From assembly GCA_029213165.1 (NCBI GenBank), contig JARGNO010000001.1:160095-204518 (forward strand): DNA of 44,424 nucleotides, read 5' to 3'. Origin of the DNA: Minwuia sp. Lineage in GTDB: Bacteria; Pseudomonadota; Alphaproteobacteria; Minwuiales; Minwuiaceae. Of the stretch, positions 11,530 to 42,687 are shown one piece after another. The position numbers and the translations under genes were made by a program. The number at the start of each line of letters is the position of its first letter. The first letter of the stretch is position 1. The notes below the pieces were generated by a model, which saw nothing but the letters and a program-made list of their open reading frames with translations, made no database searches and was not told the DNA's origin.

Positions 11530-11574
11530 GTCCGACCCGTGCTCCGCCGTCAGGGGGCTTCCGAGAATGTCAGG

Positions 11575-12036: not shown

Positions 12037-12055
12037 GGAATTTTCTCCACCTTTT

Positions 12056-12071: not shown

Positions 12072-12176
12072 TTCTTTATCACACTAAGCGAAAATCAGGC
12101 AAAGAATCGGAACTCATTCCGGGTGCGGCGGGCGATACTGGGAGATCAGACAAATTCCACGGTTCAGGAGGCTGTG

Positions 12177-18459: not shown

Positions 18460-18468
18460 GACCCGACC

Positions 18469-26518: not shown

Positions 26519-26577
26519 GGGTGCCGATGTTACCGGCAAATCGCGACCTTTCAATCCCGCAGGGCTTGCGGTGCAGG

Positions 26578-26603
26578 GTTGCGTGCCCTTATCTGAACGC
26601 AAC
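26578..26603. promoter_or_regulatory. Inverted repeat between PaaX-like and MBL genes
   Basis: Perfect arms GTTGCGT (26578-26584) and ACGCAAC (26597-26603) with a 12-base spacer, in the 127-base divergent gap. The centre-to-centre distance is 19 bases, about two helical turns, fitting a dimeric repressor such as the adjacent PaaX-like protein. Positional inference only. Confidence 0.45.
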
Positions 26604-26645
26604 AGGACCGGTCATCAACCGGCAGGAAACAGGGGAGACAGCGGC

Positions 26646-27596
26646 ATGGCGCGCGCATTCGCATCGACACAGGATCTGGGGCCGAAGGAAATCACGTTCG
26701 AGCAACTGACGGAGAATACCTGGGTCTATGTGGAGGAGGGTGATCCCACCTCCGGTGTGATCATCGGCGATGACGGCGTCATGGTGATCGATACCCGTGC
26801 CACGCCCATCGCGGCGGATGACCTGATCCGCCGCGTGCGCGAAGTGACCGACAAGCCGTTCCGCTATGTCGTGCTGACCCACTATCACGCGGTCCGCGTG
26901 CTGGGCGCCGCCGCCTATGGCGCGGAGCACATCATCGCCTCAGAGCCGACGATGGAGATGATCCGTGAGCGCGGAGATGCCGACTACAAGTCGGAAGCAG
27001 ACCGGTTCCCGCGCCTGTTCCAGGGCATCGAGAGCATTCCCGGCCTGACCTGGCCGACCATGACCTTCTCCGACCGGATGACCATCATGATGGGCGACCT
27101 GGAGGTGCAGATCATGCATCCGGGCCGGGGCCATACGCGCGGTGACACCATCGTCTGGGTGCCTTCGCAGAAGGTGCTGTTCTCCGGCGATCTGGTGGAG
27201 AACGGCGCCACGCCCTACACGGGCGATGCCCACCTGCGCGACTGGCCCGGCACCCTGGACAAGCTGCGTGCGCTGAAGCCGGAGTTCCTCATCCCCGGCC
27301 GCGGCCCCGCAATGAAGACACCGGCAGCCTGCGAGGAAGCCATCGCCGGCACGGAGAGCTTCATCCGCGCCCTGTACGACGGCGTCGCCCGGGAAGTCGC
27401 CGCCAACCATTCCCTGAAGGAAGCCTATGACACGGTGGTTCCGGCGCTGGAGAGCAAGTACGGCCACTGGTCCATCTTCGCCCACTGCATGCCCTTCGAC
27501 ATCTCCCGCGCATATGACGAGGCCAGCGGCATGGACCACCCCCGCATCTGGACCGCCGACCGCGACAAGGAAATGTGGCAGCAACTGGAGCAATAG
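26646..27596 (+). CDS. MBL-fold protein with altered metal site
   Basis: Metallo-beta-lactamase-fold protein of 316 residues. The usual HxHxDH motif reads HYHAVR: His79 and His81 are kept but the Asp and second-site His are Val83 and Arg84. His163 (GRGHTRGD) and Asp182 (FSGDLV) are kept, while the last second-site His is Arg219 (IPGRGP instead of PGHGP). Thus the first metal site is intact and the second appears lost in a consistent way. A hydrolase with one metal or a changed reaction are options. It is divergent from the PaaX-like regulator and probably controlled by it. The same HYHAVR variant occurs, as far as I recall, in a wider subfamily. Confidence 0.85.
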   Translation: MARAFASTQDLGPKEITFEQLTENTWVYVEEGDPTSGVIIGDDGVMVIDTRATPIAADDLIRRVREVTDKPFRYVVLTHYHAVRVLGAAAYGAEHIIASEPTMEMIRERGDADYKSEADRFPRLFQGIESIPGLTWPTMTFSDRMTIMMGDLEVQIMHPGRGHTRGDTIVWVPSQKVLFSGDLVENGATPYTGDAHLRDWPGTLDKLRALKPEFLIPGRGPAMKTPAACEEAIAGTESFIRALYDGVAREVAANHSLKEAYDTVVPALESKYGHWSIFAHCMPFDISRAYDEASGMDHPRIWTADRDKEMWQQLEQ

Positions 27597-27620
27597 GAAC
27601 AGGACTTCAGCGCTCCCGAC

Positions 27621-27652
27621 GACAGGGTGACCGTGCGGTGCGTGACCCTGTC
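27621..27652. terminator. Hairpin between convergent MBL and FIST genes
   Basis: Perfect 8-bp arms GACAGGGT (27621-27628) and ACCCTGTC (27645-27652) with further partial pairing inside. It lies in the 64-base gap between two convergent stops. There is no strong T-run on either side, so a bidirectional terminator is plausible but not certain. Confidence 0.45.
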
Positions 27653-27660
27653 ATTTCAGG

Positions 27661-28755
27661 TCACAGGAACAGCGACAGCACACCCGTATAGGCATAGAGG
27701 CGGCTGTTGGCGATCTCGCCATTGCCGAAGAATCCGATCAGCGGCAGGTCGGGGAACCGTTCCCGGATCATCGCGGCCTCGGTGCGGGAATCGTCGAACA
27801 GGTTCGGCCCGCGGCCAAGGCAACTGAAGTAGAGCCCGCCGCGCGGTGCGGTGCCGCCCGCGCGCTGTTCCAGCGTGTCCAGCATGCGTTCCATGTCCGC
27901 CACGGCTGCTGCGCCGTCGCGACGGCAGAACATCAGCCGCTGCCCCACCGAGACGTCTTCCGCCACTGCCACCAGGCCGTGCTGAGGATCGACGCCCGCG
28001 ATTTCCCGCACCAGGTAATCGCCACTATCCTGACCCGCCGGGGCCAGTCCGGCAAAGATGAAGCCGGGAATGCGGTCCAGGTTGCGGGACAGGATCTCGC
28101 CAATGTCCTGCCTGAAGACCTCGAACGCCGGTCTGCCATCCAGCTCGATGGCGATATTGCGTTCCGCCCGCGTGATCTCCCGCGCCGGGCCAATCGGGGT
28201 GCATCCCTGGGTGAGGGCGGTAGCAACCGGAACCTGATCGGAGAAGGCGATACCCGCCGGACCACCGGTCGTCAGGGTCTTCGCCACCACTGGATTCGGC
28301 CCCCGGGAAGCCGCGAGGCCGCCAACCCAGTAACCACCGGGCTGCTGCTCCAGCACCTGCAGGCTCTCCCGAAGTTCGGGCTGGCCCGGATCGGCATGGA
28401 CAACACCGAACCATGGTGTGAACGGCAGTGATGACGCGTCGCCGGGGCGCAGCAGTTGCGACGTGCCCCCGGGCATCGCGGTCAGCATCACGGCAATGGC
28501 AGGGGTATCGAAGAACTGCCGGTCGTTGGCCAGGATTCCGATCCCTGCCGTGCCCACCCAGTCACCGATGCCCGTCCGGCCACGCAGAACAGTCAGAATA
28601 CCCTGCGCATCGCCGGAGAAATGGTCGGACAGATAGACAAAGCCGGGGCCAGCGTGCTGCAGGTCCGGATCAATCATGTCCAGGCATTGCCCCAGCGCGA
28701 TGCGCCAGTCCGCGTCCGCACCCCAACCCGTCTGAAAGCGTTCGTTCGTGCTCAT
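27661..28755 (-). CDS. Stand-alone FIST sensory-domain protein
   Basis: Protein of about 364 residues made of the FIST N and FIST C domains, a sensory module thought to bind small ligands such as amino acids. Visible features are TGWGADADW at the start, the GTAGIGILAND loop, and the C-terminal CLGRGPNLFDDSRTEAAMIRERFPDLPLIGFFGNGEIA, typical of FIST C. No output domain (kinase, GGDEF, methyl-accepting) is attached. ATG at 28755 gives the family N-terminus; its ribosome site is weak. It is convergent with the MBL gene; the signalling partner is not obvious in the window. Confidence 0.85.
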   Translation of the reverse strand: MSTNERFQTGWGADADWRIALGQCLDMIDPDLQHAGPGFVYLSDHFSGDAQGILTVLRGRTGIGDWVGTAGIGILANDRQFFDTPAIAVMLTAMPGGTSQLLRPGDASSLPFTPWFGVVHADPGQPELRESLQVLEQQPGGYWVGGLAASRGPNPVVAKTLTTGGPAGIAFSDQVPVATALTQGCTPIGPAREITRAERNIAIELDGRPAFEVFRQDIGEILSRNLDRIPGFIFAGLAPAGQDSGDYLVREIAGVDPQHGLVAVAEDVSVGQRLMFCRRDGAAAVADMERMLDTLEQRAGGTAPRGGLYFSCLGRGPNLFDDSRTEAAMIRERFPDLPLIGFFGNGEIANSRLYAYTGVLSLFL

Positions 28756-28848
28756 CAATGCATTTCTGGACGTGACGACCGACGCACACAAGCCATGATC
28801 ACGATGTTTCGCTTTTTCCCTGTGCGGGCGGAAGGATAGATTGAACGG

Positions 28849-29043: not shown

Positions 29044-31050
29044 TCAGCCTGCCAAGGCCGCCTTGCGTCCGCCCAGGAACGCGACGGCGACACCCGGCGC
29101 CGCCACGACAAGGGCGATCAGACTCAGCTCGGTGTGGCTGAAACCGATCATCTCACCGCCAGGTGCGGCGAAGATCAGACCCCCGACAAACAGGCTGGCG
29201 CGACCGATCACGCCCATCACACCTCCCCCCAGCCGTCCGACACCGAACAGGTATCCCTGCAACGCCGCCGCAACCATCAGGATGCCGATCACGGCCGTCA
29301 CGCAGACGACGATGACCTCCAGCGTTCCGGCATTGCCCAGCAGGGCCGGGTTGAAGACGAAGAAGAACGGGATGAAGTAGATGATGGAGCCGATCCGCAT
29401 GGCCTCGAAGCCGGTCTGCATCGGCTCCGACCGGGCGACAGAGGCGGCGGCGAAGGCGGCCAGCGCCACCGGCGGGGTGATGAAGGACAGCATGCCCCAG
29501 TAGAGCAGGAACATGTGGACGCTCATCGGATCCAGGCCCGCCGAGATCAGTGCCGGAGCGAGGATGATGGCCAGGAAGATATAGGCCGCGGTCACGGTCA
29601 TGCCGATGCCGAGAATGAAACTCGTCACCGCGCCCATCACCAGCAGCACCAGCGGATGGCCACCTGCCAGATACACCAGATCATTGGTCAGGGTGCCGGT
29701 CATGCCGGTCGCCTGCAACGCGCCGACGATCAGGCCGACGGCAGCCAGCAGGCTGGCCAGTTCCGCCAGCAGACAGCCGGTGGCATAGACGAACTGCTTC
29801 AGTTTCAGCCAGTCGAGCCGATGCTTCGGATTGAACTGGTTGATGATCAGCAGCAGCGCGGTGGCATAGAACGGTGCCTGCGCCTCCCGCTTCATGTAGA
29901 TCAGCATGAAGATCAGCAATGCGAAGACGAACAGGTAGTACCAGCCCTCGATCATCACCCTGCGCACGGACGGCAGTTCCGCCCGCGGCAGGCCGGTCAG
30001 CTTCTTCTCCGCCGCATAGGCATCGATCTGCATGAACAGGCCGAGGTAATAGAGCAGTGACGGAATGGCGGCGGCCAGCGCCACGTCGATGTAGCGGACC
30101 TGCAGGAAGTCGGCCATGACGAAGGCCGTCGCCCCCATGATCGGCGGCATCATCACGCCACCGGTGGAGGCACAGGCCTCGATCGCGCCCGCTGTCTTGG
30201 AGCGGATGCCGATGCGTTTCATCGCCGGAATGGTCAGGGAACCGGTGGTCAGGACATTGGTCACCGGCCCGCCGGACATGGAGCCGAAGAGACCGGACGA
30301 GAAGATCGCCACCTTGGCAGGGCCGCCCCGAACATGGCCCAGCAGCGCGAAGGCGAAGCTGATGAAGAACTGGCCGGCACCGGTGTAGATCAGGGCCACA
30401 CCGAACAGCAGGAACCCGAAGACCAGCAGCGCGAAGGCCTTCATCGGGATCCCGAGATAGCTCTCCTCCGAGAACATGTGGAACGCCGCCGTATCCAGGA
30501 ACGGACGGCTGAGGCCTGACACCACCTGCGGCACCTGGTCGGCGTAGATGGGGTAGAGCGAGATCACCAGCACGATGAAGAATACGGCGGGGCCACCGGC
30601 ACGGCGACCCGCCTCCATGATCACGGCCCACATGACCACGCTGACCCACATGCCATGCAGGGGCGCCGCATATTCCCAGGCTTCCAGCAGGATCGATTCC
30701 GCGTACCAGACGTAATAGCAGGTCAGGCCGAGGGTCAGGATCATCAGGGCAATGTCGTAGAAGGGCACCTTCGTCTTCGAGGACCGCTTGAAGCCCGGCA
30801 GGACCACGAACACCATCGAGATCATGATGCCGCCGACCAGGTAGAGGTAGCGGTTGTCGACCAGTGCCTTGCCGATCAGCGCCTGCAGCACCTCCAGCGC
30901 GAACATGCGATCAATCGCGATCAGCATGGCAATGCTGGTCATCGCGGAGATGATGCCCAGCCAGACGGGCCCTAGCGTGCGGTAGCGGCTGGCTTCCCGA
31001 TCATCGATCTCTTCAGGTTCGGTAGACGGATTCGTGGCGCTGTCGGACAT
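29044..31050 (-). CDS. TRAP transporter fused permease (second TAXI system)
   Basis: Inner-membrane fused Q-M permease of 668 residues, close in sequence to the one at 1362-3413: the block GHVRGGPAKVAIFSSGLFGSMSG and the EACASTGGVMMPPIMG motif are nearly identical. Many hydrophobic segments span the chain. The ATG at 31050 has a G-rich ribosome site (GGGGGG) and removes a short non-homologous leader. It follows the second TAXI binding-protein gene on the same strand, with two GC-rich hairpins in the 143-base gap. Confidence 0.93.
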   Translation of the reverse strand: MSDSATNPSTEPEEIDDREASRYRTLGPVWLGIISAMTSIAMLIAIDRMFALEVLQALIGKALVDNRYLYLVGGIMISMVFVVLPGFKRSSKTKVPFYDIALMILTLGLTCYYVWYAESILLEAWEYAAPLHGMWVSVVMWAVIMEAGRRAGGPAVFFIVLVISLYPIYADQVPQVVSGLSRPFLDTAAFHMFSEESYLGIPMKAFALLVFGFLLFGVALIYTGAGQFFISFAFALLGHVRGGPAKVAIFSSGLFGSMSGGPVTNVLTTGSLTIPAMKRIGIRSKTAGAIEACASTGGVMMPPIMGATAFVMADFLQVRYIDVALAAAIPSLLYYLGLFMQIDAYAAEKKLTGLPRAELPSVRRVMIEGWYYLFVFALLIFMLIYMKREAQAPFYATALLLIINQFNPKHRLDWLKLKQFVYATGCLLAELASLLAAVGLIVGALQATGMTGTLTNDLVYLAGGHPLVLLVMGAVTSFILGIGMTVTAAYIFLAIILAPALISAGLDPMSVHMFLLYWGMLSFITPPVALAAFAAASVARSEPMQTGFEAMRIGSIIYFIPFFFVFNPALLGNAGTLEVIVVCVTAVIGILMVAAALQGYLFGVGRLGGGVMGVIGRASLFVGGLIFAAPGGEMIGFSHTELSLIALVVAAPGVAVAFLGGRKAALAG

Positions 31051-31104
31051 GGGACCCCCCAAAAACGATCTGAGCAGGACAGGCAGCATTGCTGCGGACA
31101 GGAA

Positions 31105-31193: not shown

Positions 31194-32357
31194 TCACCAG
31201 GTCTCGAAGATCGTGATCATGCCGGCGGCTTCCAGGGCATCGAAGCGCGCCTTCATCCAGCCGGTGTTGAACGCCTCTTCATCCGATGATGCATCCTTCG
31301 TGTAAGCCGCCCAGGCATCCTGCAGCACCTTCTGGCGGGCCAGGTTCTTTTCCTGGTTGGCCTGTGCACCGTCCGACCACTTGCCGACTTCCTTGTAGTA
31401 ACGGATGGCACCGGGGTGGAACGGCAGGAACACATGCTCCAGCTTCTGACGCTCCCAGGCCCAGCCGTTGGCGCCCGGTGCGGAAGCCTTGTAGTCGTCG
31501 TAATGTTCGTACATCGCCTTGGTCATATTGTAGGCGAGGTCGTCGCTGGCCTGCGTCGTGCCGACCAGGATCGGGTAGGCGGTGCCGACGCCTTCATAAC
31601 CCTCGGCGGGAACGGCAGCACCCTGCATGCACTTGTGCGGGAAGTACCACGGCACCACCGCATTCAGCCGCTTCCAGCCTTCGGTGTCGGCATGGGGCTG
31701 CGGCGGATGCATCAGGCCGCGCGGGCTCGCCTCCAGCTTCACCATGGAGGTCGAGAACGTCGCGCCCTCGGCCGCGTCATTGTCGCCATTGATGATGCTG
31801 TCGATGGAGGCACCATAGCCACCCACCTGCACCTTCTCGACGTCGTCCCATGTCAGACCGGCGTGGGCCAGCATGGCCTCCACCGCCTTGTTGAGTGCCG
31901 GCGCACCCTGGACCCAGGAAATGCGCTTGCCCTTCAGGTCGGCCATGGTCTTGACCCCGGCATCGGCTGCCACGGCCATGGAGACGGCACAGCCGTCAGC
32001 CACATTGTGCAGCAGCAGACGGATCGGCTGCGGGCCCCAGTTGCGGTTGCCGAATGTATAGACGGCTTCCTGCGCGTAGACGCTGTCCGAACCGGTCGCG
32101 GAGAACTGGGCAACGCCCTTCACCAGCGGCGTCAGGCGGGACACGTCATTCTTGCCCGGCAGCACCCGCAGGTTCACGCCATAGGTGTTCTTCAGCACCG
32201 AACCGATGCCAACCGCCTGGTTGTAGCCGGAGGTGCCTGTGTTGTATGCGGTCCAGACAAGCGTGTTCGGCAGATTGATTTCCGCCGTCGCGGCCTGCGC
32301 CGCAAGGGCCACAGCCGCCACCGCAGCGGCAGGCGCAATTCTCTTCCAGACTGACAT
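31194..32357 (-). CDS. TAXI family TRAP transporter solute-binding protein (second)
   Basis: Periplasmic protein of 387 residues with a Sec signal peptide (Ala-rich core, likely cleavage after ATA near residue 25) and the TAXI pattern VWTAYNTGTSGYNQAVGIG, LPGKNDVSR and DLKGKRISWV. It is a clear paralogue of the protein at 203-1348. The start at 32357 has GGAGG upstream. The 200-base gap to the divergent dehydrogenase-Rieske-ligase operon holds both promoters, so the imported solute may be the substrate of those enzymes. The ligand itself cannot be read. Confidence 0.93.
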   Translation of the reverse strand: MSVWKRIAPAAAVAAVALAAQAATAEINLPNTLVWTAYNTGTSGYNQAVGIGSVLKNTYGVNLRVLPGKNDVSRLTPLVKGVAQFSATGSDSVYAQEAVYTFGNRNWGPQPIRLLLHNVADGCAVSMAVAADAGVKTMADLKGKRISWVQGAPALNKAVEAMLAHAGLTWDDVEKVQVGGYGASIDSIINGDNDAAEGATFSTSMVKLEASPRGLMHPPQPHADTEGWKRLNAVVPWYFPHKCMQGAAVPAEGYEGVGTAYPILVGTTQASDDLAYNMTKAMYEHYDDYKASAPGANGWAWERQKLEHVFLPFHPGAIRYYKEVGKWSDGAQANQEKNLARQKVLQDAWAAYTKDASSDEEAFNTGWMKARFDALEAAGMITIFETW

Positions 32358-32557
32358 GATCGTATCCTCCCCATTCAGGTTTCTGCCGCCCCTGCTGGAG
32401 ACGGATTTTTTATTTACGTTGCGGAAAGGTTATGCGACCTCCAGCCGATTGAACAGACCTGAAATCCAACAACTCCGAATCCGCGTTCCGGTGCCGATTC
32501 CATCCTGTGCCGGATCAGTCTAGGTTCTGGCACCTGCCTTGGGGGGAGAGAAACGAG

Positions 32558-33454
32558 ATGACGCAAACCGGATTTGGCCACATCGGATTCATCGGGCTCG
32601 GCGTGATGGGGGAGGCGATGTGCCGGAACCTCGTGCGTCGTGGGACATGGGCAGTCACTGCCTTTGACCTGAACCCTGCGCCGCTGGAGCGACTGGCCGG
32701 CGAGGGGGCCGGGATCGCTGGCTCGGTGGCCGAACTGATGGCGCAGGTTGACCTTGTCATCACCTGTCTTCCAGGGGGCGAACAGGTTCGGGCGCTGGTG
32801 CTCGGGGCCGATGGCCTGGTCGGCCACCTGCGTGAAGGCCAGGTCCTGATCGACATGTCCACATCCCAGCCGACGCTGATGCGGGAGATCGCGGCAGAGG
32901 CGGCGGAGAAGGGCGCGCGTTTCGCCGACGCCCCGATCGCCCGCACCCGCCAGGCTGCCGCCGACGGGACACTGGCGATCATGGTCGGTGCACCGGATGA
33001 CCTGTTTCAGACGATCCGGCCCGTTCTGGCGACCATGGGCTCCGATATCGAACATTGCGGTGCGGTCGGATCAGGTCAGGTCATCAAGATCATGAACAAC
33101 ATGGTGCTGTTCCAGACCGTCCTCGCCCTTGGCCAGGCGGTTGCGATTGCCGAGAAGGCGGGGGTTCCGGGCAAGGTCCTGCTGGATACGATGATGAAGG
33201 GCTCCGGCGACAGTTTCGCGCTGCGCAATCACGGCGTGAAGGCGATCCTGGCCGATACCTACCCGGAGAAATCCTTCTCCGTGCGCTATGCCGCCAAGGA
33301 CCTGTCCTACGCACTGGAGATGGCGGCGGAATTCGGCGTCCGCGCGCCCGGCGGCGAGACGGTCGCGCGGATGTTCGAGGAGGCCATCGCCAATGGCGAC
33401 GGTGACCGCTACTTCCCCGTCATGCGTCGCATCCTGGATGTCACCGACGCCTGA
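32558..33454 (+). CDS. 3-hydroxyisobutyrate dehydrogenase-like NAD(P) oxidoreductase
   Basis: Beta-hydroxyacid dehydrogenase family protein of 298 residues: Rossmann motif GFIGLGVMGEAMCRNL near residues 10-25, DMSTSQPT near 110, and the catalytic-lysine segment GSGQVIKIMNNMV with Lys177. The usual DAPVSGG is changed to DAPIARTR, so the substrate-binding loop differs from true HIBADH or tartronate-semialdehyde reductase. Start at 32558 has a GGGGGGAGAG ribosome site. It is first in a forward operon with the Rieske and ligase genes and would oxidise or reduce an acid or aldehyde intermediate there. Confidence 0.9.
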   Translation: MTQTGFGHIGFIGLGVMGEAMCRNLVRRGTWAVTAFDLNPAPLERLAGEGAGIAGSVAELMAQVDLVITCLPGGEQVRALVLGADGLVGHLREGQVLIDMSTSQPTLMREIAAEAAEKGARFADAPIARTRQAAADGTLAIMVGAPDDLFQTIRPVLATMGSDIEHCGAVGSGQVIKIMNNMVLFQTVLALGQAVAIAEKAGVPGKVLLDTMMKGSGDSFALRNHGVKAILADTYPEKSFSVRYAAKDLSYALEMAAEFGVRAPGGETVARMFEEAIANGDGDRYFPVMRRILDVTDA

Positions 33455-33544
33455 TCAGATGAGTGCTGGCCGCGCCTTGCCATCGACAGCGGGGCCTCCG
33501 GACTGGCAGTCTGGTCCGATGTGGATGTTGCGAGAGTGTGCGCC

Positions 33545-34855
33545 ATGATGAGTCAGAAGAACAACGACCTGATCACCCGCGTCGGGCCGGGTACGCAAGC
33601 AGGCGCATTGCTGCGGCAGTACTGGCAGCCGGTGGCACTGTCGGATGAACAGGTGAGTGCGCGGCCCGTGGTGCCGGTGACGGTCCTGGGGGAGCGGCTG
33701 GTGCTGTTCCGCGATGAAACGGGCACGCTGGGACTGATCGGTCGTCACTGCCCGCATCGCGGCGCTGACCTGGCCTATGGGCGGCTGGAGGATGGCGGCC
33801 TGCGCTGTCCCTTCCACGGCTGGCTCTTCGACTGCACCGGGCAATGCCGGGAACAGCCGGCGGAACCGGACGGCAGCGTCATGCATCGCCATGTCCGGGC
33901 CGTGAATTACCCGGTGATGGAACGCAATGGTGCCGTCTTCGCCTGGATGGGAGGCGGTGAGCCACCGGCCCTGCCCGCGCTGGATTGCTTCAGCGCGCCG
34001 GACAGTCACGTCTTTGCCTTCAAGGGACTGTGGGACTGCAACTGGCTGCAGGCCCTGGAAGTCGGGATTGACCCGGCCCATGCATCCTTCCTGCACCGCT
34101 TTCTCGCGGACGGGGACCCGGCAGAAAGCTACGGCAAGCAGTTTCGCGATTCGGTTGCCGACAGCGAGATCCCGATGACGAAGCTGCTGCGCGACTATCC
34201 GCGGCCGGAGCTGATGATCGAGGATACCGACCACGGCATGCGGCTGACGGCACTGCGGCACATGGCGGACGGGCGGACCCATGTGCGTGTCACCAACCAG
34301 ATCTTCCCGCAGGCCATCGTCATCCCGATGTCGAACGAGATGACGATCACCCAGTGGCACGTGCCGGTGGATGACGGGAGCTGCTACTGGTTCTCCCTGT
34401 TCACCAGCTTCGCCCGGCCCGTGGACAAGGCCGTGATGCGGGAGCAGCGGCTGAAGCAGCATCGCCTGCCCGACTATCGCCCGATCACGGGTGCGGCCAG
34501 CAACTATGGTTTCGATGCCGACGAACAGGCGCGGGAGACCTTCACGGGCATGGGACAGGACATCAACGTGCACGACCAGTGGGCGGTCGAGTCCATGGGC
34601 CGCATCCAGGACCGGCGACAGGAACATCTGGGCAAGTCCGACGTGGGTATCGTGCGCTATCGCCGCCTGCTGCGCGATGCGATCCGCCAGGTGGCGGCGG
34701 GGGAGGGCGTGCCGTTCCGTGACAGCCAGACCCGGCAGAGCGGCCCGGTGGCCGTCGACAGCATCTGCGCCACCGGGAGCTGGGAACAGCAATGGCGCGA
34801 CTTCGATACCAGCCGGCGGGCGGCATGCCCGTGGCCAGCCACACTCGGGGCCTGA
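33545..34855 (+). CDS. Rieske non-heme iron oxygenase, alpha subunit
   Basis: Oxygenase of about 436 residues. The Rieske 2Fe-2S site is complete: Cys69-x-His71 and Cys88-x-x-His91. The catalytic domain shows the mononuclear iron motif GIDPAHASFLH with bridging Asp176 and ligands His179 and His184. The layout resembles the phthalate dioxygenase/LigXa-type group that works without a beta subunit, and none is encoded here. It needs a reductase; none is adjacent. Starts at 33545 and 33548 are both possible. It ends three bases before the ligase gene, so the two are surely cotranscribed. The substrate is probably aromatic or amine-bearing. Confidence 0.92.
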   Translation: MMSQKNNDLITRVGPGTQAGALLRQYWQPVALSDEQVSARPVVPVTVLGERLVLFRDETGTLGLIGRHCPHRGADLAYGRLEDGGLRCPFHGWLFDCTGQCREQPAEPDGSVMHRHVRAVNYPVMERNGAVFAWMGGGEPPALPALDCFSAPDSHVFAFKGLWDCNWLQALEVGIDPAHASFLHRFLADGDPAESYGKQFRDSVADSEIPMTKLLRDYPRPELMIEDTDHGMRLTALRHMADGRTHVRVTNQIFPQAIVIPMSNEMTITQWHVPVDDGSCYWFSLFTSFARPVDKAVMREQRLKQHRLPDYRPITGAASNYGFDADEQARETFTGMGQDINVHDQWAVESMGRIQDRRQEHLGKSDVGIVRYRRLLRDAIRQVAAGEGVPFRDSQTRQSGPVAVDSICATGSWEQQWRDFDTSRRAACPWPATLGA

Positions 34856-34858
34856 GGC

Positions 34859-36271
34859 ATGTCTGACCACGCGCTGCCGGAGGGGGCGGAGGCGGTTCTG
34901 GCGGAGGCGCAGGAGCGGGGCGTGGAAACCGTCCGCATCAGCTTCACCGACCAGCATGGCATCCTGCGCGGCAAGGCCCTGCCCGCCAGCGCCTTGGAAA
35001 GCGCCTTTCGCAATGGGGTCACCATGACCTCGACCCTGCTGCTGAAGGATACGTCCCACCGTACGGTCTTCCCCGTCTGGGGTGACGATGCGGGTTTCGG
35101 GGACGGTGTCCTGACCGGTGCGGGTGATGTGGTCATGCGACCCGATCCGGCCAGCTTTCGCGTCCTGCCATGGGCATCGCATTCAGCCTGGATGCTGGCC
35201 GACATTCATCTGCCGGATGGTGAGCCTTTTCCCTTCAGCCCCCGGCACCTGCTGCGCCAGGCGATGCAGCGGCTGGCGGATCGCAACATGCGTCTGGTGA
35301 CGGGACTGGAGCTGGAGTTCCATGTCTTCCGCATCACCGATCCGCGCCTGGGCCACGCCGACACCGGCATGCCGCCCGAGGCGCCGGAGACGGAACTGCT
35401 GGCGCATGGCTACCAGTATCTGACCGAGGATCGCTATGCCCGGCTGGAACCGGTGATGGACATGCTGCGCCGCGCCGCCGAGGGGCTGCATCTGCCGGTC
35501 AGATCGATGGAGGTGGAGTTCGGGCCGGGACAGTTCGAGTTCACCTTCGATCCCGCCGGGGCCATGGTCCATGCCGACAACATGATCATGTTTCGCGCCA
35601 TGGCGAAGCAGGTCTGTCGCGAGCAGGGACTGCATGCCACCTTCATGACCCGGCCACAGGTCGCGAACGGCATGGCCAGTGGCTGGCACCTGCATCAGTC
35701 GCTGGTGGACCGGATCAGCGGCCAGAACCTGTTCATGGCCCGACCGGACGGGTCACTGTCGGCCATCGCCAGCGCCTGGATCGCCGGATTGCTGGACCAT
35801 GCGGCAGCGACCTGCCTGCTCTCCACACCGACCATCAACGGCTACAAGCGCTATCAGAACGCCTTCCAGCTTGCCCCGGACCGGATCGCCTGGGGCCGCG
35901 ACAACAAGGGCACCATGCTGCGGGCGCTGATGGGTGCGGACGACGCCGCGAGCCGGGTCGAGAACCGCGTGGCGGAGGCTGCCGCCAATCCCTACCTGCA
36001 CATGGCTGCGCAGATCCTCGCCGGACTGGACGGGATCGCGCGCGGGCTGGAGGCGGGTGCGCCGGTCACCCGTCCCTACGACAATGATGCCCCAGCCCTG
36101 CCGCGAAACCTGGGGACCGCGCTGGACGCATTTCAGGCCAGCCCCTTCATCGACCAGGCCTTCGGGGATGGTTTCAACCGCTACTTCAGCACCATCAAGC
36201 GTGCCGAATGGGACCGCTTCCTCGCCACCGTCACGGACTGGGAACAGCGCGAGTACTTCTCGATATTCTGA
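34859..36271 (+). CDS. Glutamine synthetase-like gamma-glutamyl ligase
   Basis: Protein of 470 residues of the glutamine synthetase fold. Visible are the N-terminal beta-grasp segment RISFTDQHGILRGKALPAS, the metal ligands in ELEFHVF and EVEFGPGQFEF, the WHLHQSL loop, INGYKRYQ, and VENRVAEAAANPYL near the end. True GlnA lacks this N-terminus; the pattern is that of the ligases that attach glutamate to amines (PuuA, IpuC, or the aniline-pathway AtdA1 type). Being fused in one operon to a Rieske oxygenase, it most likely activates an amine as its gamma-glutamyl amide, before or after oxygenation. Substrate is inferred only. Confidence 0.9.
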   Translation: MSDHALPEGAEAVLAEAQERGVETVRISFTDQHGILRGKALPASALESAFRNGVTMTSTLLLKDTSHRTVFPVWGDDAGFGDGVLTGAGDVVMRPDPASFRVLPWASHSAWMLADIHLPDGEPFPFSPRHLLRQAMQRLADRNMRLVTGLELEFHVFRITDPRLGHADTGMPPEAPETELLAHGYQYLTEDRYARLEPVMDMLRRAAEGLHLPVRSMEVEFGPGQFEFTFDPAGAMVHADNMIMFRAMAKQVCREQGLHATFMTRPQVANGMASGWHLHQSLVDRISGQNLFMARPDGSLSAIASAWIAGLLDHAAATCLLSTPTINGYKRYQNAFQLAPDRIAWGRDNKGTMLRALMGADDAASRVENRVAEAAANPYLHMAAQILAGLDGIARGLEAGAPVTRPYDNDAPALPRNLGTALDAFQASPFIDQAFGDGFNRYFSTIKRAEWDRFLATVTDWEQREYFSIF

Positions 36272-36314
36272 GGTTTCCTGCCGCGCAGACTGACGGATGG
36301 TGTCCCCACAAACA

Positions 36315-36346
36315 ATGACGCGGCCGGATTGCTCCGGCCGCGTCAT
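36315..36346 (-). terminator. Strong hairpin between ligase and LLM oxygenase genes
   Basis: Perfect 14-bp arms ATGACGCGGCCGGA (36315-36328) and TCCGGCCGCGTCAT (36333-36346) with a TTGC loop. On the reverse strand it is followed by TGTTTGT, a modest T-rich run, so it best serves the reverse-strand LLM gene; it may also stop forward transcripts from the ligase operon. Confidence 0.8.
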
Positions 36347-36406
36347 CCTCCCCTTCCCGGCCTCCTCCCCAGTAGGCCCGGCGGAAAAGCTTGGTCCTTT
36401 GATCTG

Positions 36407-37504
36407 TCAGGCGGCGGCCTGTGCCAGACGTTCGGCAGCAGGCGGTGCCTTCTTCAGTTCCGGCATGACTTCCCGCGCGAACAGTTCGGCGTTGCGCATG
36501 GATTCCTCCCGCGGCATCCCGGCGTAGGAGAACACCCCATTGAAGCCATCCGCACCGATGGTGTCGGCGGTCTTCATGATCTTCTCGAGGCACATCTCCG
36601 GCGTGCCCCAGACCTGCAGGTTCATGAAGAATTCGGTCGCCGCGTCGGGGCCATTCTTCAGCAGGTTGTCGCGGAACTGGGCGTAATACTCATAGCCCTT
36701 CATGTTCTGCATGTGGTCGCCGTCGAACTGGTAGTGGTCCATCACCGTCTTCCAGTAGCCACCGATGTATTTCAGCGCCATCTCGTAGGCGCGGTCCCGG
36801 TTCTCGTCGCAGAAGACCCAGCCACCGGCGATCGGTGCGGGGGCGTCCGCATTGTTCACCTCGCGGTAGATCGCGCGGTATTCGTCCAGCTCCTTGCGCA
36901 CGGCGGCCCAGGGCTTCTGCGGAATGATCAGGATACCGACCCCCAGCCGCGCCATGATGCGGGCTGATTCAGGGCTGACTGCGGCGGCATAGGTGCGACC
37001 GCGGAAGCTGCTGTGCGGGTTCGGCCGGATCTCGACGCGGGGCTGCTTGTAATGCTCGCCATCGAACTCGGCGTGACCGGTCTCCAGGCTGTCGAGGACC
37101 ATGGTCGCGGCCTCGACGAAACGCTCGCGGCTCTCCCCCATGTCCAGGCGGAAGCCATCGAACTCGACCTTGCCCGCGCCGCGACCGATGCCGAGGATGA
37201 AGCGGCCACCCGACATGTTGTCGAGCATCGAGATCTGCTCCGCAGCGCGCAGTGGGTCATGCCATGGCAGCACGACCACCATCGACCCGAGCTGGATCGT
37301 CTTCGAACGTCCGGCCATGTAGCTGAGAAACATCAGCGGGTCCGGGCACATGGTATAATCGGTGAAGTGATGCTCGACGGTCCAGACGCTGTCGAAACCC
37401 AGGGGTTCCGCCGCCTCTGCCAGAGCCATGTCAGCCTCGTAGACTTCCCTGTCCGAGCGTTCCTTGCCCGGATTCTGGAAGATCACACCCATCCCCACAT
37501 GCAT
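36407..37504 (-). CDS. LLM class flavin-dependent monooxygenase
   Basis: Luciferase-like protein of 365 residues: MHVGMGVIFQN start, VWTVEHHF near 43-50, LGSMVVVLPWHDPLRAAEQISMLDNMSGGRFILGIGRG in the TIM barrel, and VSPESARIMARLG. It would use reduced flavin (FMNH2) and O2 to oxidise a small substrate, so it needs a separate flavin reductase; one is encoded at 7460-8173 but far away. ATG at 37504 has GGAG upstream and aligns with the family start. It converges with the Rieske/ligase operon and may act on the same substrate. Confidence 0.9.
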   Translation of the reverse strand: MHVGMGVIFQNPGKERSDREVYEADMALAEAAEPLGFDSVWTVEHHFTDYTMCPDPLMFLSYMAGRSKTIQLGSMVVVLPWHDPLRAAEQISMLDNMSGGRFILGIGRGAGKVEFDGFRLDMGESRERFVEAATMVLDSLETGHAEFDGEHYKQPRVEIRPNPHSSFRGRTYAAAVSPESARIMARLGVGILIIPQKPWAAVRKELDEYRAIYREVNNADAPAPIAGGWVFCDENRDRAYEMALKYIGGYWKTVMDHYQFDGDHMQNMKGYEYYAQFRDNLLKNGPDAATEFFMNLQVWGTPEMCLEKIMKTADTIGADGFNGVFSYAGMPREESMRNAELFAREVMPELKKAPPAAERLAQAAA

Positions 37505-38271: not shown

Positions 38272-38898
38272 TCAACCCTTGGGCTTCATCATCTTCTCAA
38301 GTTGGCGCTGCATGGCGTCAAGTTGATCCTTCATCTGCTCGATATCACCCGACGCGCCAGCGGTTAACGGCTTCTCGCCTGTCCGGGTCGCGGGCTTTGC
38401 GGGCGCTGGCTCGCCTGCCGCAGGTGCTCCGTCCTGCACTGCCGCGAACGGATTGAACATGCTCATGGCCTGGTCGAACAGCGCCATGTTGCGCTTGGTC
38501 GCCTCCTCGAAATGCTGCAGGGGCGAGCCAAGGCTGCCACCGAAGCGGGTGCGCATCTCGTCCTGGTTCTTCGAGAACGCATCCATCGACATGTCGAGAT
38601 AGCTGGGCAGCAGTCCCTGCAGGCTGTCACCGTAGAAACTGATGAGTTGACGAAGGAAATTCACCGGCAGCACGTTCTGGCCCTTGCCCTCCGCCTCGAA
38701 GATGATCTGCGTCAGGACGGACCGGGTGATGTCCTCCCCCGATTTGGCGTCGAAGACCACGAAGTCGATATCGTCCCGCACCATCTCGGCCAGATGGTCC
38801 AGAGTGACGTAGGAAGAAGTGGAAGTATTGTAGAGCCGTCGGTTCGCATACTTCTTGATGGTCACCGGACCCTCTCCGGCCTTTTCTCGACGGGACAT
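38272..38898 (-). CDS. phaR: Polyhydroxyalkanoate synthesis repressor PhaR
   Basis: Regulator of 208 residues. The N-terminal PhaR DNA-binding domain is clear (IKKYANRRLYNTSTSSYVTLDHLAEMVRDD, about residues 14-43, in the family's usual position), followed by PHB-accumulation regulatory repeats (LLPSYLDMSMDAF) and a Pro/Ala linker with a short C-terminal helical segment ending KMMKPKG. PhaR binds both nascent polyester and DNA, repressing phasin and pha genes until polymer appears. It is divergent from the PhaE-like/PhaC-like pair; boxes similar to those before phaA lie in its upstream gap, which suggests autoregulation. Confidence 0.96.
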   Translation of the reverse strand: MSRREKAGEGPVTIKKYANRRLYNTSTSSYVTLDHLAEMVRDDIDFVVFDAKSGEDITRSVLTQIIFEAEGKGQNVLPVNFLRQLISFYGDSLQGLLPSYLDMSMDAFSKNQDEMRTRFGGSLGSPLQHFEEATKRNMALFDQAMSMFNPFAAVQDGAPAAGEPAPAKPATRTGEKPLTAGASGDIEQMKDQLDAMQRQLEKMMKPKG

Positions 38899-38971
38899 TC
38901 AGCAACTCCGACCAGGTTTGTGCGCGACCCTGTCATGCCAGGGCACGTGAACATCGAACTATCGCCGTTTC

Positions 38972-38984
38972 ATGTTGCATTGCG
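38972..38984 (-). promoter_or_regulatory. Candidate PhaR box upstream of phaR
   Basis: The reverse strand reads CGCAATGCAACAT, 11 of 13 bases identical to the box at 40578-40590 before phaA. It is 74 bases upstream of the phaR start and 83 before the small PhaE-like gene. TGC-rich sites are known for PhaR in other species. Confidence 0.45.
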
Positions 38985-39066
38985 CAAGGCGTATTCGCTC
39001 TTGCAGCGAAGTCACGCCGGGGCGCGAAGATTTCTTGTGGCCCGGAAATGCTGTAGATTGGCCGCA

Positions 39067-39366
39067 ATGACAACGCCAGCATCTGATCCTCCCGACCCGG
39101 ACCGCCTCGCCCGCCAGTTCGTTGACCTCTGGCAGGAGCAGGCTGCCCGGGCCTCCGCCGATCCCCGGCTGAGGGAGAGCTGGAAAGCCTTGAGCGGATT
39201 ATTGCATGACCGCAGCGCCGAACAGGAAACAGCCGGGCCCCGGGGTGAGCCGACGCATCGGTCCCCGCCCGCTGGCGCTGCATCTGGCGACAGCGGGGGC
39301 GACGCTGACCGGGGCAATGGCGGCACTGCCCCTGGCGCAGTCCGGCGGGATTCCCTGGCACCCTGA
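39067..39366 (+). CDS. Small PhaE-like protein upstream of PhaC-like hydrolase
   Basis: Frame of 99 residues. Residues 1-50 (DPDRLARQFVDLWQEQ, then ADPRLRESWKALSGLL) look like a genuine folded segment, similar to small proteins I recall preceding PhaC-like genes in Rhodospirillales and to the start of PhaE. From about residue 47 the frame overlaps the hydrolase gene by 161 bases, and the tail there is Gly/Asp-rich, low complexity and probably non-functional. The ribosome site is poor. It could be a PHA-synthase accessory subunit; its expression is unproven. Confidence 0.5.
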   Translation: MTTPASDPPDPDRLARQFVDLWQEQAARASADPRLRESWKALSGLLHDRSAEQETAGPRGEPTHRSPPAGAASGDSGGDADRGNGGTAPGAVRRDSLAP

Positions 39367-40465
39367 CATTGCCGACAGGGCCAACGGCCTGCTGGCCGCC
39401 ATGGCAGCAACGGACAGCACGAAGCTGGGCGCCGCGATTGCCGCCGAGTGCGCGCGACGGATGCAGGCCACCCTGGCAGGCATTGAACAGTACCAGACCC
39501 ATCCCTGGCACCGGATCGCCGATGAGCCACCTGCCCTCTGGCGACAGGGCGCGGTGCGGCTGCTTGACTATGGTGTTCCGGGTCAGGCCGACGCGCCGGT
39601 GGTCATGTTCGTGCCATCGCAGATCACCCGGGCCTGGGTCCTGGACCTGCTGCCCGACAACAGCATGCTTCGCTGGCTGGCAGCGGAGGCGGGGTTGCGT
39701 CCCCTGTTGCTCGACTGGGGCACGCCGGGAAAGCCGGAGCGCCGCTACGATGTCGCCGCGTTTCTCGAGGGACCGCTTTCCTCGGCGCTCGATGCGGCGG
39801 TCCGCCTGAATGGCGACCGGCCTGTTCCACTTGTCGGCTATTGCATGGGCGGCACATTGTCAGTCGCCCTGAGCCTGCTGCGCGGCGATGCCATCTCCGC
39901 CCTGGCCCTGCTGGCCTCCCCATGGGACTTCCACGCGGACCTCAGCCCGCAGGCCGAAGCCTTCGCCGCGTCGCTGCCCATGTGGCAACCGGTGCTGGAG
40001 GCCTTTGGCGAGATGCCCATCGACCTGATCCAGGCCTTCTTTGCCGCGCTTGATCCCAATCTCGCGCAACGCAAGTTCGCCCGCTTCGCCGGCATGGACC
40101 CAGGCAGCGAGAAGGCCCGGCAGTTCGTGGCGCTGGAGGACTGGCTGAACGACGGACCGGCCCTGCCGCCCAGGGTCGCCCATGACTGCCTTGTCGGCTG
40201 GTACAACGAGAACCTGCCCGGCACGGGCCGCTGGCAGATCGGGGACACGGCAATCCGGCCCGGCGACCTGAGAATGCCCGTGTTCGCGGCCATCCCGGCA
40301 CAGGACCGGATCGTGCCACCCGCCTCCGCCCGTGGCGCGGTGCGCGACCTGCCGCAGGCCACCGTGATCGAACCTGCGGCGGGCCATATCGGCATGGTGG
40401 TCGGATCCCGTGCCCGGCGCAGCCTCTGGCAGCCCCTTGGCGATTGGCTGGGGACCGTGACATGA
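39206..40465 (+). CDS. PhaC-like alpha/beta hydrolase (short PHA synthase relative)
   Basis: Alpha/beta-fold protein of 419 residues with PHA-synthase features: the modified lipase box GYCMGG with Cys213, Asp367 (PAQDRIVPP) and His394 (AAGHIGMVV) as catalytic triad, and the PhaC-like stretch VLDLLPDNSMLRWLAAE. It is shorter than class I PhaC (about 590) and its N-terminus (RRIGPRPLALHL) belongs to a distinct Rhodospirillales branch. It could polymerise hydroxyacyl-CoA, or depolymerise or transfer acyl groups. It lies divergent from phaR and upstream of phaA-phaB, which supports a polymer role. Its start overlaps the small upstream gene by 161 bases. Confidence 0.88.
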   Translation: MTAAPNRKQPGPGVSRRIGPRPLALHLATAGATLTGAMAALPLAQSGGIPWHPDIADRANGLLAAMAATDSTKLGAAIAAECARRMQATLAGIEQYQTHPWHRIADEPPALWRQGAVRLLDYGVPGQADAPVVMFVPSQITRAWVLDLLPDNSMLRWLAAEAGLRPLLLDWGTPGKPERRYDVAAFLEGPLSSALDAAVRLNGDRPVPLVGYCMGGTLSVALSLLRGDAISALALLASPWDFHADLSPQAEAFAASLPMWQPVLEAFGEMPIDLIQAFFAALDPNLAQRKFARFAGMDPGSEKARQFVALEDWLNDGPALPPRVAHDCLVGWYNENLPGTGRWQIGDTAIRPGDLRMPVFAAIPAQDRIVPPASARGAVRDLPQATVIEPAAGHIGMVVGSRARRSLWQPLGDWLGTVT

Positions 40466-40483
40466 CAGGCGATTCGGCATTGG

Positions 40484-40611
40484 TGCGTTGCAGCAAGAAT
40501 ACCGCTGCGCCGTCGCGACATACCGACACATTAACCATTCCACAGTTGCCGGAACCCTCGGAGACCGGCACTCTTTTCGCAATGCAGCAATCATATGTTG
40601 CGTCGCAGCAA
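40484..40611 (+). promoter_or_regulatory. Three repeated TGC-rich boxes upstream of phaA
   Basis: TGCGTTGCAGCAA (40484-40496), CGCAATGCAGCAA (40578-40590) and TGCGTCGCAGCAA (40599-40611) share the pattern YGCRWNGCAGCAA in the same orientation. The last two start 21 bases apart, two helical turns; the first is 94 upstream, about nine turns. They sit in the 211-base gap before phaA and are candidate PhaR operators. The gap holds no gene. Confidence 0.6.
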
Positions 40612-40676
40612 TGTCTGTGTGACGCAGCGTAAGGCGTGATATGCTGTCCGAGAAACCACCAAGGAGGAAATCCTGA

Positions 40677-41852
40677 ATGTCCGATATCGTCATCGCATCT
40701 GCCGCCCGTACCCCGGTCGGCTCCTTCAACGGGGCGTTCGGGTCCGTTCCCGCGCATGATCTCGGCACCGTCGCGATCAAGGGCGCGCTGGAGCGCGCCG
40801 GTGTCGACGCCGCCGAAGTCTCAGAAGTCATCATGGGCCAGATCCTGACCGCAGGTCAGGGCCAGAACCCGGCCCGCCAGGCATCGATCAATGCCGGTGT
40901 GCCGCAGGAAAGCCCGGCCTGGGGCGTGAACATGCTGTGCGGCTCCGGCCTGCGCACCGTTGCGCTCGGCTGGCAGGCCATCCGCAACGGCGACAGCAAG
41001 ATCGTGGTTGCCGGCGGCCAGGAAAGCATGTCCATGGCACCGCACGCCCAGCATCTGCGCGCCGGTGCCCGCATGGGCGACATGAAGTTCATCGATACGA
41101 TGATCCGCGATGGTCTCTGGGATGCCTTCAACGGCTATCACATGGGCAATACCGCAGAGAACATTGCCCAGCAGTGGCAGATCACGCGGGAGCAGCAGGA
41201 CGAATTCGCCCTCGCATCCCAGAACAAGGCCGAGGCAGCGCAGAAGGCCGGGAAGTTCAAGGACGAGATCGTGCCGGTCACCATCAAGGGCCGCAAGGGC
41301 GATACGGTGGTGTCGGAGGACGAATACATCCGCCATGGCGCGACGATGGACATGATGACGAAGCTGCGTCCGGCCTTCACCAAGGATGGCTCCGTCACCG
41401 CCGGCAATGCATCCGGCATCAACGATGGTGCCGGTGCAGTCGTCATGATGACCGCTGAAGAGGCGGCGAAGCGTGGCATCACCCCGCTGGCCCGTATCGT
41501 CTCCTGGGCCCAGGCCGGTGTCGATCCCGCGATCATGGGCATCGGGCCGGTCCCGGCGACGCGCAGCGCGCTGGAGAAAGCGGGCTGGACCGTCGATGAC
41601 CTGGACCTGATCGAGGCCAATGAGGCCTTTGCCGCACAGGCCTGCGCCGTCGGCAAGGACCTGGGCATCGACCCGGCGAAGCTGAACGTCAATGGCGGCG
41701 CCATTGCCATCGGCCATCCCATCGGTGCCTCCGGTACCCGTGTGCTCAACACCCTGCTGTTCGAGATGCAGAAGCGTGATGCCAAGAAGGGCCTCGCCAC
41801 CCTGTGCATCGGCGGCGGCATGGGTATCGCCATGTGCGTCGAGCGCGACTGA
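40677..41852 (+). CDS. phaA: Acetyl-CoA acetyltransferase (beta-ketothiolase)
   Basis: Biosynthetic thiolase of 391 residues that condenses two acetyl-CoA into acetoacetyl-CoA, first step of polyhydroxybutyrate synthesis. Catalytic Cys88 (MLCGSGLRT), His347 ([10 protein letters not shown]) and Cys377 (TLCIGGGMG) are all present and the length is standard. A strong AAGGAGG precedes the ATG. Three repeated boxes upstream may bind PhaR. It is followed by phaB after a 112-base gap holding a large hairpin. Confidence 0.97.
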
Positions 41853-41869
41853 CCCGAACGACCGACGAA

Positions 41870-41915
41870 CCGTTCCGATCCGCGGCCCTGCTGCAGGGCC
41901 GCGGGTCAGGAACGG
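41870..41915 (+). other. Large nested hairpin between phaA and phaB
   Basis: Outer arms CCGTTCC (41870-41876) and GGAACGG (41909-41915) enclose perfect inner 10-bp arms CCGCGGCCCT (41880-41889) and AGGGCCGCGG (41895-41904) with a five-base loop. No T-run follows; it may partly attenuate or stabilise the phaA message and so set the phaA:phaB ratio. Confidence 0.7.
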
Positions 41916-41964
41916 GCGTCACAACATCCTCCCCCAAGAAAAAGAAACCAAGGAGTCCAATCAG

Positions 41965-42687
41965 ATGGCACGAGTAGCACTCGTCACTGGCGGCACGCGC
42001 GGTATCGGCGCGGCCATTTCCACCACCCTGCGCGATGCCGGGATCAGCGTTGCCGCGAATTATGCAGGCAATGACGAGGCCGCCCGGGCCTTCACGGCGG
42101 AGACCGGCATTCCCGCCTTCAAGTTCGACGTCTCCGATTTCGACGCGGTACATGCGGCCGTGGCGAAGATTACCGCAGAAGTCGGCCCCATCGACATCGT
42201 GGTCAACAATGCCGGCATCACCCGCGACGGCACGCTGGCGCGGATGAGCAAGGAAGCCTGGCAGGCGGTCATCGACACCAACCTGGGCGGCTGCTTCAAC
42301 CTGGCCAAGGCAACCTTCGACGGCATGAAGGAGCGCAGCTTCGGCCGCATCGTCAACATCGGCTCCATCAACGGCCAGGCCGGCCAGTACGGTCAGGTGA
42401 ACTATGCCGCCGCCAAGTCCGGCATCCACGGCTTCACCAAGGCCCTGGCGCAGGAAGGCGCACGGTTCAACATCACCGTCAACGCCATCGCACCAGGTTA
42501 CATCGACACCGACATGGTGGCCGCGGTTCCGGCCAATGTGCTGGAGAAGATCGTTGCCAAGATTCCGGTCGGGCGCTTGGGCCATGCCGACGAGATCGCG
42601 CGTGGTGTGCTGTTCCTGGTTTCCGATGACGCGACCTTCGTCACCGGCTCCACCATGTCCATCAATGGTGGCCAGCACATGTACTGA
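41965..42687 (+). CDS. phaB: Acetoacetyl-CoA reductase
   Basis: NADPH-dependent SDR of 240 residues reducing acetoacetyl-CoA to (R)-3-hydroxybutyryl-CoA. Cofactor motif GGTRGIG at the N-terminus, NNAGITRD near 85, Ser134 and catalytic Tyr147 and Lys151 (YAAAK), and the PhaB-like INGQAGQYGQVNY segment support the call over FabG. A clear AAGGAG precedes the ATG. A GAAA-loop terminator follows the stop. Confidence 0.96.
   Translation: MARVALVTGGTRGIGAAISTTLRDAGISVAANYAGNDEAARAFTAETGIPAFKFDVSDFDAVHAAVAKITAEVGPIDIVVNNAGITRDGTLARMSKEAWQAVIDTNLGGCFNLAKATFDGMKERSFGRIVNIGSINGQAGQYGQVNYAAAKSGIHGFTKALAQEGARFNITVNAIAPGYIDTDMVAAVPANVLEKIVAKIPVGRLGHADEIARGVLFLVSDDATFVTGSTMSINGGQHMY

Follow-up and report, generated by a model that had tools for sequence, protein, structure and literature searches.

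We analyzed a 44 kb stretch of DNA (44,424 nucleotides; hereafter the window) from an alphaproteobacterial genome of the Minwuia group, and focused on two of its genes: one for the alpha subunit of a Rieske ring-hydroxylating oxygenase (RO; positions 33545..34855, + strand) and one for a glutamine synthetase (GS)-like ligase (34859..36271, +). This RO-GS pair is a relative of the known sulfanilate-degrading system and not a wholly new pathway. Judging from sequence, we lean toward a two-enzyme module of the SadAB type that acts on an anionic aromatic amine and most likely turns 4-aminobenzoate into protocatechuate. A first-pass annotation of the same DNA had proposed an undescribed route for an amine or N-bearing aromatic compound. 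We agree that an N-bearing aromatic substrate is likely; the route itself has a described counterpart in sad, a published Rieske plus glutamine-synthetase system for 4-aminobenzenesulfonate.

Linkage of the oxygenase and ligase genes

We surveyed 117 loci with relatives of the window ligase: 80 genome loci (the best 80 of 366 relatives from a genome scan, to which all counts out of 80 refer), nine plasmid loci, and 28 further regions, which partly overlap in origin with the 80 and are not all independent. Neighboring genes were counted as homologues above 60 bits within 9 kb, and several loci end before 9 kb. The RO gene lies directly upstream of the ligase gene, on the same strand and less than 400 bp away, in 69/80 loci. 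It lies within 3.5 kb in 77/80, the additional eight having another arrangement or an RO in pieces, and was not found near the ligase in L017, L068, and L081. An RO is also near the ligase in 25 of the 28 further regions; in L148, one of the three exceptions, the ligase starts the contig and an RO could not have been seen. By taxonomic label, the pair ranges over Alphaproteobacteria, Gammaproteobacteria, and Verrucomicrobiota, and over Betaproteobacteria on plasmids. The Bacteroidota label of L076 is doubtful, because its gene order matches that of L126, an alphaproteobacterial sample. Among a set of 96 relatives, a ligase match at E 1e-60 was present in 14, five of them in the window genus (its own genome included), and absent in two genomes of that genus. 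The ligase match of genome G004 contains an in-frame TAG, which may reflect assembly error or decay.

This linkage bears on the possibility that an ordinary glutamine synthetase, or a gamma-glutamyl synthetase of polyamines or methylamine, happens to adjoin an RO here. The ligase does belong to the GlnA/GlnIII/PuuA superfamily, though none of its NCBIfam scores reaches the cut-off. Chance placement is nevertheless extremely improbable given the number of loci in which the RO stays within 3.5 kb, the adjacency of the two genes on betaproteobacterial plasmids too, and the structure match of the ligase: NpaA1 (1-naphthylamine gamma-glutamyl synthetase, 8wwu) scores 390 bits, versus 188 bits for the next structure. 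This match places the ligase among the organic-amine (GoaS) enzymes. The earlier assignment of the ligase to gamma-glutamylation of organic amines, and its tie to the oxygenase, are thus borne out across many lineages, and the concern that it might be an unrelated polyamine enzyme falls away for the pair.

Residues and relatives of the two enzymes

We used NpaA1 as a guide to the amine pocket of the ligase (its PDB chain numbers are the published numbers plus 15, judged from the EDEW motif). The NpaA1 pocket glutamates E232 and E234, which form the catalytic ExE, correspond to E218 and E220 in the window ligase, and the extra N-terminal loop of NpaA1 (V68-M81) aligns without gaps at the sequence level. 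F75 of NpaA1 is described as the tunnel bottleneck, and its change to Ala as nearly abolishing aniline activity (PMC11335346). This column is occupied by Lys63 in the window ligase, and by Lys in 88/88 RO-linked rows with a residue there (89 rows, window included, one of them with a gap). In four ligases of alpha-beta-oxygenase (aniline-type) clusters, the same column holds F, F, F, and V. Position 68 of the ligase is likewise Arg or Lys in 77/80 rows with a residue there from loci with an unsplit RO, and in 8/8 rows from loci with a split RO (see below). A charged amine tunnel of this kind would suit an anionic amine.

The window RO has a Rieske domain (PF00355) and a LigXa_C domain (PF19301), and retains the Rieske ligands, the bridging Asp, and the mononuclear-iron ligands, as in the phthalate dioxygenase (PDO)/LigXa family. 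Its closest solved structures are 7fhr, a putative phthalate dioxygenase (211.8 bits); 9ina, an isophthalate dioxygenase (IPDO; 211.1 bits); and 7fjl, the PDO of C. testosteroni KF-1 (189.8 bits). R244 of PDO and R234 of IPDO are described as binding the substrate carboxylate (PMC12445078). Both align with Arg256 of the window RO (read off the alignment and counted from the GTG at 33521 that opens the reading frame, the first ATG being at 33545), and Arg is found in this column in 87/87 aligned RO rows, window included. The second phthalate-binding Arg of PDO, R207, falls in a gapped region of the alignment, with no Arg aligned in the window RO. The carboxylate-anchoring Arg and membership in an alpha-only family are thus shared with PDO, IPDO, and LigXa-type oxygenases; in contrast, four sampled plasmid relatives that have no GS gene adjoin PDR/VanB reductases. 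In a tree of a hand-picked set (35 of the 87 gathered RO rows plus eight others), the 38 GS-linked rows split from the five unlinked rows with support 100/97, a split flagged for very long outgroup branches.

In a Rhodobacteraceae group, the RO is seemingly split into a small Rieske-domain protein beside a shorter catalytic alpha protein (L095:11819-13492, L020, L024, L029, L030, L033, L037, and L094:900-2630). Only in L094 do the two proteins share the strand of the ligase. A naturally split Rieske oxygenase would be unusual if genuine. Beyond the split RO in L095, from Pseudooceanicola algae, are hydantoinase/oxoprolinase A and B genes and a gene annotated as ureidoglycolate lyase (15998-19341).

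The sad operon of Hydrogenophaga intermedia PBC specifies a 4-aminobenzenesulfonate 3,4-dioxygenase, with sadA for the dioxygenase, sadB for a glutamine synthetase, and sadC for a ferredoxin (PMC5632844); the SadA and SadB proteins have the accessions WP_009515254.1 and WP_009515256.1. That report describes the operon as conserved in Hydrogenophaga, conveys the authors' suspicion that the natural substrate resembles 4-aminobenzenesulfonate, and lists N. resinovorum SA1 as a degrader of the same compound (PMC5632844). On plasmid pSA3 of SA1, a stretch of ~8 kb holds an RO-GS pair together with ferredoxin and FAD-reductase genes; ~40 kb from the pair are the sulfocatechol genes for 4-sulfomuconolactone hydrolase, maleylacetate reductase, and pcaHG. 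The pSA3 pair is presumably the SA1 sulfanilate dioxygenase. It is 59% (RO) and 49% (GS) identical to the window pair and 80% and 74% identical to the pair of Bradyrhizobium RD5-C2; it retains both marker residues (Lys in the ligase, Arg in the oxygenase); and its RO falls with the window RO in the GS-linked group of the tree. At the sequence level, kinship of the window pair with the sad type is judged from the SA1 pair.

As in sad, the window RO gene adjoins a GS-like ligase gene, 3 bp apart, and the chemistry is likely on an acid-bearing aryl amine. The two differ in three respects: (i) no ferredoxin or reductase genes were seen beside the window pair (the reductase of the sad system we take to be SadD); (ii) the window pair has a TAXI importer and a dehydrogenase gene nearby; and (iii) the gene context of its relatives suggests a carboxylate substrate and protocatechuate. 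Both an Fer2 ferredoxin and an FAD reductase are near the pair in 6/9 plasmid loci and 4/28 further regions, and single members of this set in 4/80 loci and one more of the 28 regions. The electron-transfer reductase of plasmid locus L098 is HcaD/AndAa-like.

The first-pass annotation had likened the pair to the aniline pathway, with the beta subunit, amidotransferase, and reductase missing. The likeness holds for mechanism: the aniline and 1-naphthylamine systems (atdA, tdn, dca, npaA1-A5) also pair GS-like gamma-glutamylation with subsequent Rieske dioxygenation, and the pocket Glu residues and the extra loop are common to their ligases and that of the window. As a system, however, the window pair belongs with sad. 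A true aniline or chloroaniline system minus the three missing parts is very unlikely on our data, although the window ligase shares 43-47% identity with those encoded in four sampled plasmid clusters that have alpha-beta oxygenases. In a tree of 57 of the 98 GS rows, these four aniline/naphthylamine-type ligases form a clade of their own (support 100/99), whereas the window and three close relatives lie within a 22-row clade (100/100). Lys takes the place of the hydrophobic tunnel residue, and the RO is of the PDO/LigXa type rather than alpha-beta. The four clusters also carry a type 1 amidotransferase, three of them with an annotated adjacent reductase, while the window locus has none of the alpha-beta oxygenase, amidotransferase, and reductase that characterize an atdA-type cluster. 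Around the pair, an aniline-type beta subunit or AtdA2 homologue above 60 bits was found in 0/117 loci.

No beta subunit, amidotransferase, or reductase gene was seen at the window locus, as first noted, but the first two absences carry a different meaning from the one proposed. Lack of a beta subunit is not odd, since PDO/LigXa-type oxygenases are alpha-only (the KF-1 PDO is given as alpha3alpha3). Lack of an amidotransferase is not telling: in the npa system, the glutamylated amine is described as the direct substrate of the oxygenase (NpaA1A3A4A5) and the amidotransferase NpaA2 as dispensable. A gamma-glutamyl hydrolase or type 1 amidotransferase is near three of the nine plasmid pairs (L098, L099, and L101), and such neighbors fit a gamma-glutamyl intermediate.

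Gene context and the choice of substrate

We favor 4-aminobenzoate as the substrate because five lines of evidence point to it: (i) a row of pca genes in L125, where the genes for RO, GS, PcaH, PcaG, PcaB, and PcaD/CMD are consecutive on one strand; (ii) pca genes no more than ~9 kb from the pair in L038, L076, L094, and L126, with the same gene arrangement in L076 and L126, which may represent a single lineage; (iii) PcaR/PobR-type regulators; (iv) genes for PnbB (4-hydroxylaminobenzoate lyase) as neighbors of the pair in L096, L098, and L141; and (v) the invariant Arg and Lys. Regulators were collected as 41 IclR proteins by similarity to that of L096. We scanned 36 of them, leaving out of the alignment a second one of L024, those of L078, L083, and L084 (odd length), and that of L116 (a repeat of L100). 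Twelve of the 36 match TIGR02431 (PcaR/PcaU/PobR) at E 4e-85, about the curated cut-off, and the IclR of L077 scores 303 bits, above the cut-off of 284.75. Among the titles and beginnings of abstracts listed in searches of the open-access literature, we found no RO plus GS system for an aminobenzoate, and do not claim its absence from print. Homarine or another marine osmolyte was also considered as a substrate and dropped, as the papers listed by a literature search (10 of 26) offered nothing relevant.

Parts of this pathway are present in the window genome. Its pcaH scores above cut-off and is accompanied by pcaG on contig C58, and an Fer2 ferredoxin and FAD-reductase gene pair is on contig C45. 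PnbB was not found there; control genomes were silent too, so its absence is not established.

Several observations weigh against 4-aminobenzoate, or against a single function for the family. No pca genes adjoin the pair in the window genome, whose pcaHG lies next to a shikimate-dehydrogenase-like gene and thus may serve quinate or shikimate. No IclR protein of the window genome reaches the TIGR02431 cut-off (the best scores 120 bits versus 284.75). All 36 scanned IclR proteins match TIGR02431 at 1e-10, yet all 36 also match generic IclR models, so that only the 12 strong matches are informative. A pcaH gene within 9 kb of the pair is rare (2/80, 1/9, and 2/28). The ligase marker is not exclusive to RO-linked ligases, as five ligases without a nearby RO have three K and two F in the Lys63 column. 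In the ligase tree, the SA1 plasmid ligase is in a different subclade from the window, with Bradyrhizobium and Methylobacterium, and L047 and L049, both RO-linked, branch next to the aniline-type ligases (unstarred support 90/88); with this placement, a single origin of RO-linked ligases is not established. Finally, a CHMI-like small protein (PF02962, weak) scores above 60 bits near the ligase in 11/80 loci, 2/9 plasmid loci, and 1/28 regions (for example L095:10347-10685 and L034; L100:10500-10841 is weaker), and BoxR is near the pair in 21/80 loci (L058:2974-6545 and 20 others, in Bradyrhizobium and kin, mostly with benzoate-CoA ligase). The CHMI-like and BoxR neighbors hint that some members of the family act on other acids.

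We also compared 385 alphaproteobacterial genomes, taking a ligase match of E at most 1e-140 as positive and 110 bits or more for catechol-type dioxygenases, with genome size uncontrolled. pcaH is above cut-off in 20/30 ligase-positive genomes versus 52/355 others (odds ratio 11.7). Catechol-type dioxygenases are found in 16/30 versus 30/355 (odds ratio 12.4), an equal association that makes the co-occurrence of pcaH unspecific and again counts against our assignment. We therefore dropped this genome-level association as specific evidence.

A less probable but serious alternative is that the same mechanism acts on another anionic aromatic amine: 3-aminobenzoate, an aminophenylacetate, 4-aminobenzenesulfonate, or another acid-bearing ring amine. 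The marker residues and the sad precedent fix an anionic aryl amine better than they fix the exact acid. The CHMI-like gene, a weak Pfam match, is named after a different ring-cleavage pathway; Bradyrhizobium pairs adjoin BoxR and benzoate-CoA ligase; and 3-aminobenzoate opened at C3-C4 would likewise yield protocatechuate. The pca and PnbB neighbors and the strong PcaR/PobR-type regulators point instead to para-substituted benzoates and protocatechuate, and on these grounds we retain 4-aminobenzoate as the favored substrate.

The Minwuia locus and the proposed route

At the window locus, the RO and GS genes are preceded on the same strand by a gene for a beta-hydroxyacid dehydrogenase (HADH) of the HIBADH/tartronate-semialdehyde-reductase family (32558..33454, +; probable start ATG 32558). 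Gaps of ~90 bp (HADH-RO) and 3 bp (RO-GS) suggest that 32558-36271 is probably a single operon. A scan of 32300-36450 gave no sigma-70-type promoter site (0.5 expected). Divergent from these genes is an importer composed of a TAXI-family TRAP solute-binding protein (31194..32357, -; TIGR02122 198.9 bits, cut-off 84.35) and a fused TRAP transporter permease (29044..31089, -; TIGR02123 533.4 bits, cut-off 320.65). On the far side of the GS gene, and convergent with it, is a gene for a bacterial-luciferase-like monooxygenase (LLM) of the flavin type (36407..37504, -; PF00296, 1brl). Between the two convergent genes is a perfect inverted repeat with 14-bp arms and a 4-nt loop (36315..36346), which is terminator-like in shape; it has no T run, and a terminator scan reports nothing there. 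All genes named in the first-pass annotation are thus present, with the TRAP permease lying outside the range that it covered. Its description of them as one block is apt for the operon-like HADH-RO-GS set and the conserved pair, but not for the whole, which is transcribed in three directions.

The nearest loci to the window are those of IMCC3096 (labeled Kordiimonadales), whose ligase is 90% identical to that of the window, and of Minwuia metagenome-assembled genomes (MAGs), and the surroundings of the pair are shared with few others. A TAXI gene is near the pair in 3/117 loci (L013, L014, and L016), all of the Minwuia group, and HADH is directly upstream of the pair in these three only; weaker and more distant HADH-family matches occur in L069, L074, L089, and L139. 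Other loci have other importers: DctP-type TRAP in 7/80 and branched-chain-type ABC binding proteins in 24/80, with a TRAP permease also in L137. In one Minwuia MAG (L004 / L016:6295-9061), the RO and TAXI frames are broken, again perhaps through assembly error or decay. An LLM homologue above 60 bits within 9 kb of the pair was found in 0/117 loci, some of them shorter than that span. Weaker luciferase-family matches occur in L026 and L150, the former being a PF00296 protein ~1 kb upstream of the RO with only 42 bits to the window LLM. Of the cluster first described, it is therefore the RO-GS pair that is conserved elsewhere.

These distributions bear on the idea that the dehydrogenase, LLM oxygenase, ligase, and RO act jointly in a new route. 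In its favor are the physical closeness of the genes in the window genome, the joint presence of HADH, TAXI, and the pair in L013, L014, and L016, and the PF00296 protein of L026. Against it, the LLM gene is convergent behind a palindrome and has no homologue above 60 bits at the other surveyed pairs. Its position is taken in L013 by a 4-hydroxybutyrate-dehydrogenase-like gene and one of the HpaB family (10556-13244). L015 has homologues of both (1911-4602), and close kin thus differ in their downstream neighbors. We consider a joint route improbable and judge the LLM gene to be a neighbor outside the system, so that, contrary to the first-pass annotation, we do not count LLM among the pathway enzymes. 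We also rejected the idea that HADH replaces the amidotransferase: the directly upstream position of HADH is peculiar to the Minwuia group, and the amidotransferase is itself dispensable in npa.

Two further groups of genes flank the locus. Adjoining the TRAP genes, at 26262-28791, are genes for a metallo-beta-lactamase-fold protein (akin to quinoprotein relay hydrolases) and a FIST-domain protein, which hold the same position in L013. Beyond the LLM gene, at 38272-42687, are look-alikes of phaR, phaC, phaA, and phaB (polyhydroxybutyrate), judged by eye.

For the SadAB-type module with 4-aminobenzoate as substrate, we propose the following route. The TAXI/TRAP importer would probably bring in the substrate acid anion. 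As suggested by its family and residues, the GS-like ligase would couple L-glutamate to the aryl amine at the expense of ATP and so form N-gamma-glutamyl-aminobenzoate. The alpha-only RO would then dioxygenate the N-bearing carbon and a neighboring carbon, with electrons from a ferredoxin and ferredoxin reductase encoded elsewhere, for which the pair on contig C45 is a candidate. The adduct would collapse to protocatechuate and glutamine (or glutamate plus ammonia), by analogy with the published behavior of NpaA1A3A4A5, and PcaHG, whose genes are present on contig C58, would cleave the protocatechuate. The LLM gene would take no part.

More broadly, and more tentatively, RO-GS may be the missing aerobic pair for natural 4-aminobenzoate breakdown, in which the amine is masked as N-gamma-glutamyl-4-aminobenzoate and then oxidized directly to protocatechuate, and Sad may be a xenobiotic recruitment of that route; we hold this somewhat short of an even chance. 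If it is true, a 4-aminobenzoate route would be widespread in Alpha-, Beta-, and Gammaproteobacteria and Verrucomicrobiota, and two protein families, on which no NCBIfam model reaches its cut-off, would gain a function. A Lys in the ligase loop and an Arg in the oxygenase pocket would offer a rule for specificity. The guess of Gan et al. 2017 would be answered, the original Sad substrate being a natural look-alike of 4-aminobenzenesulfonate, and the origin of a dye-pollutant pathway would be revealed. Among soil and marine bacteria, turnover of the folate precursor 4-aminobenzoate and the protocatechuate pathway would then be connected.

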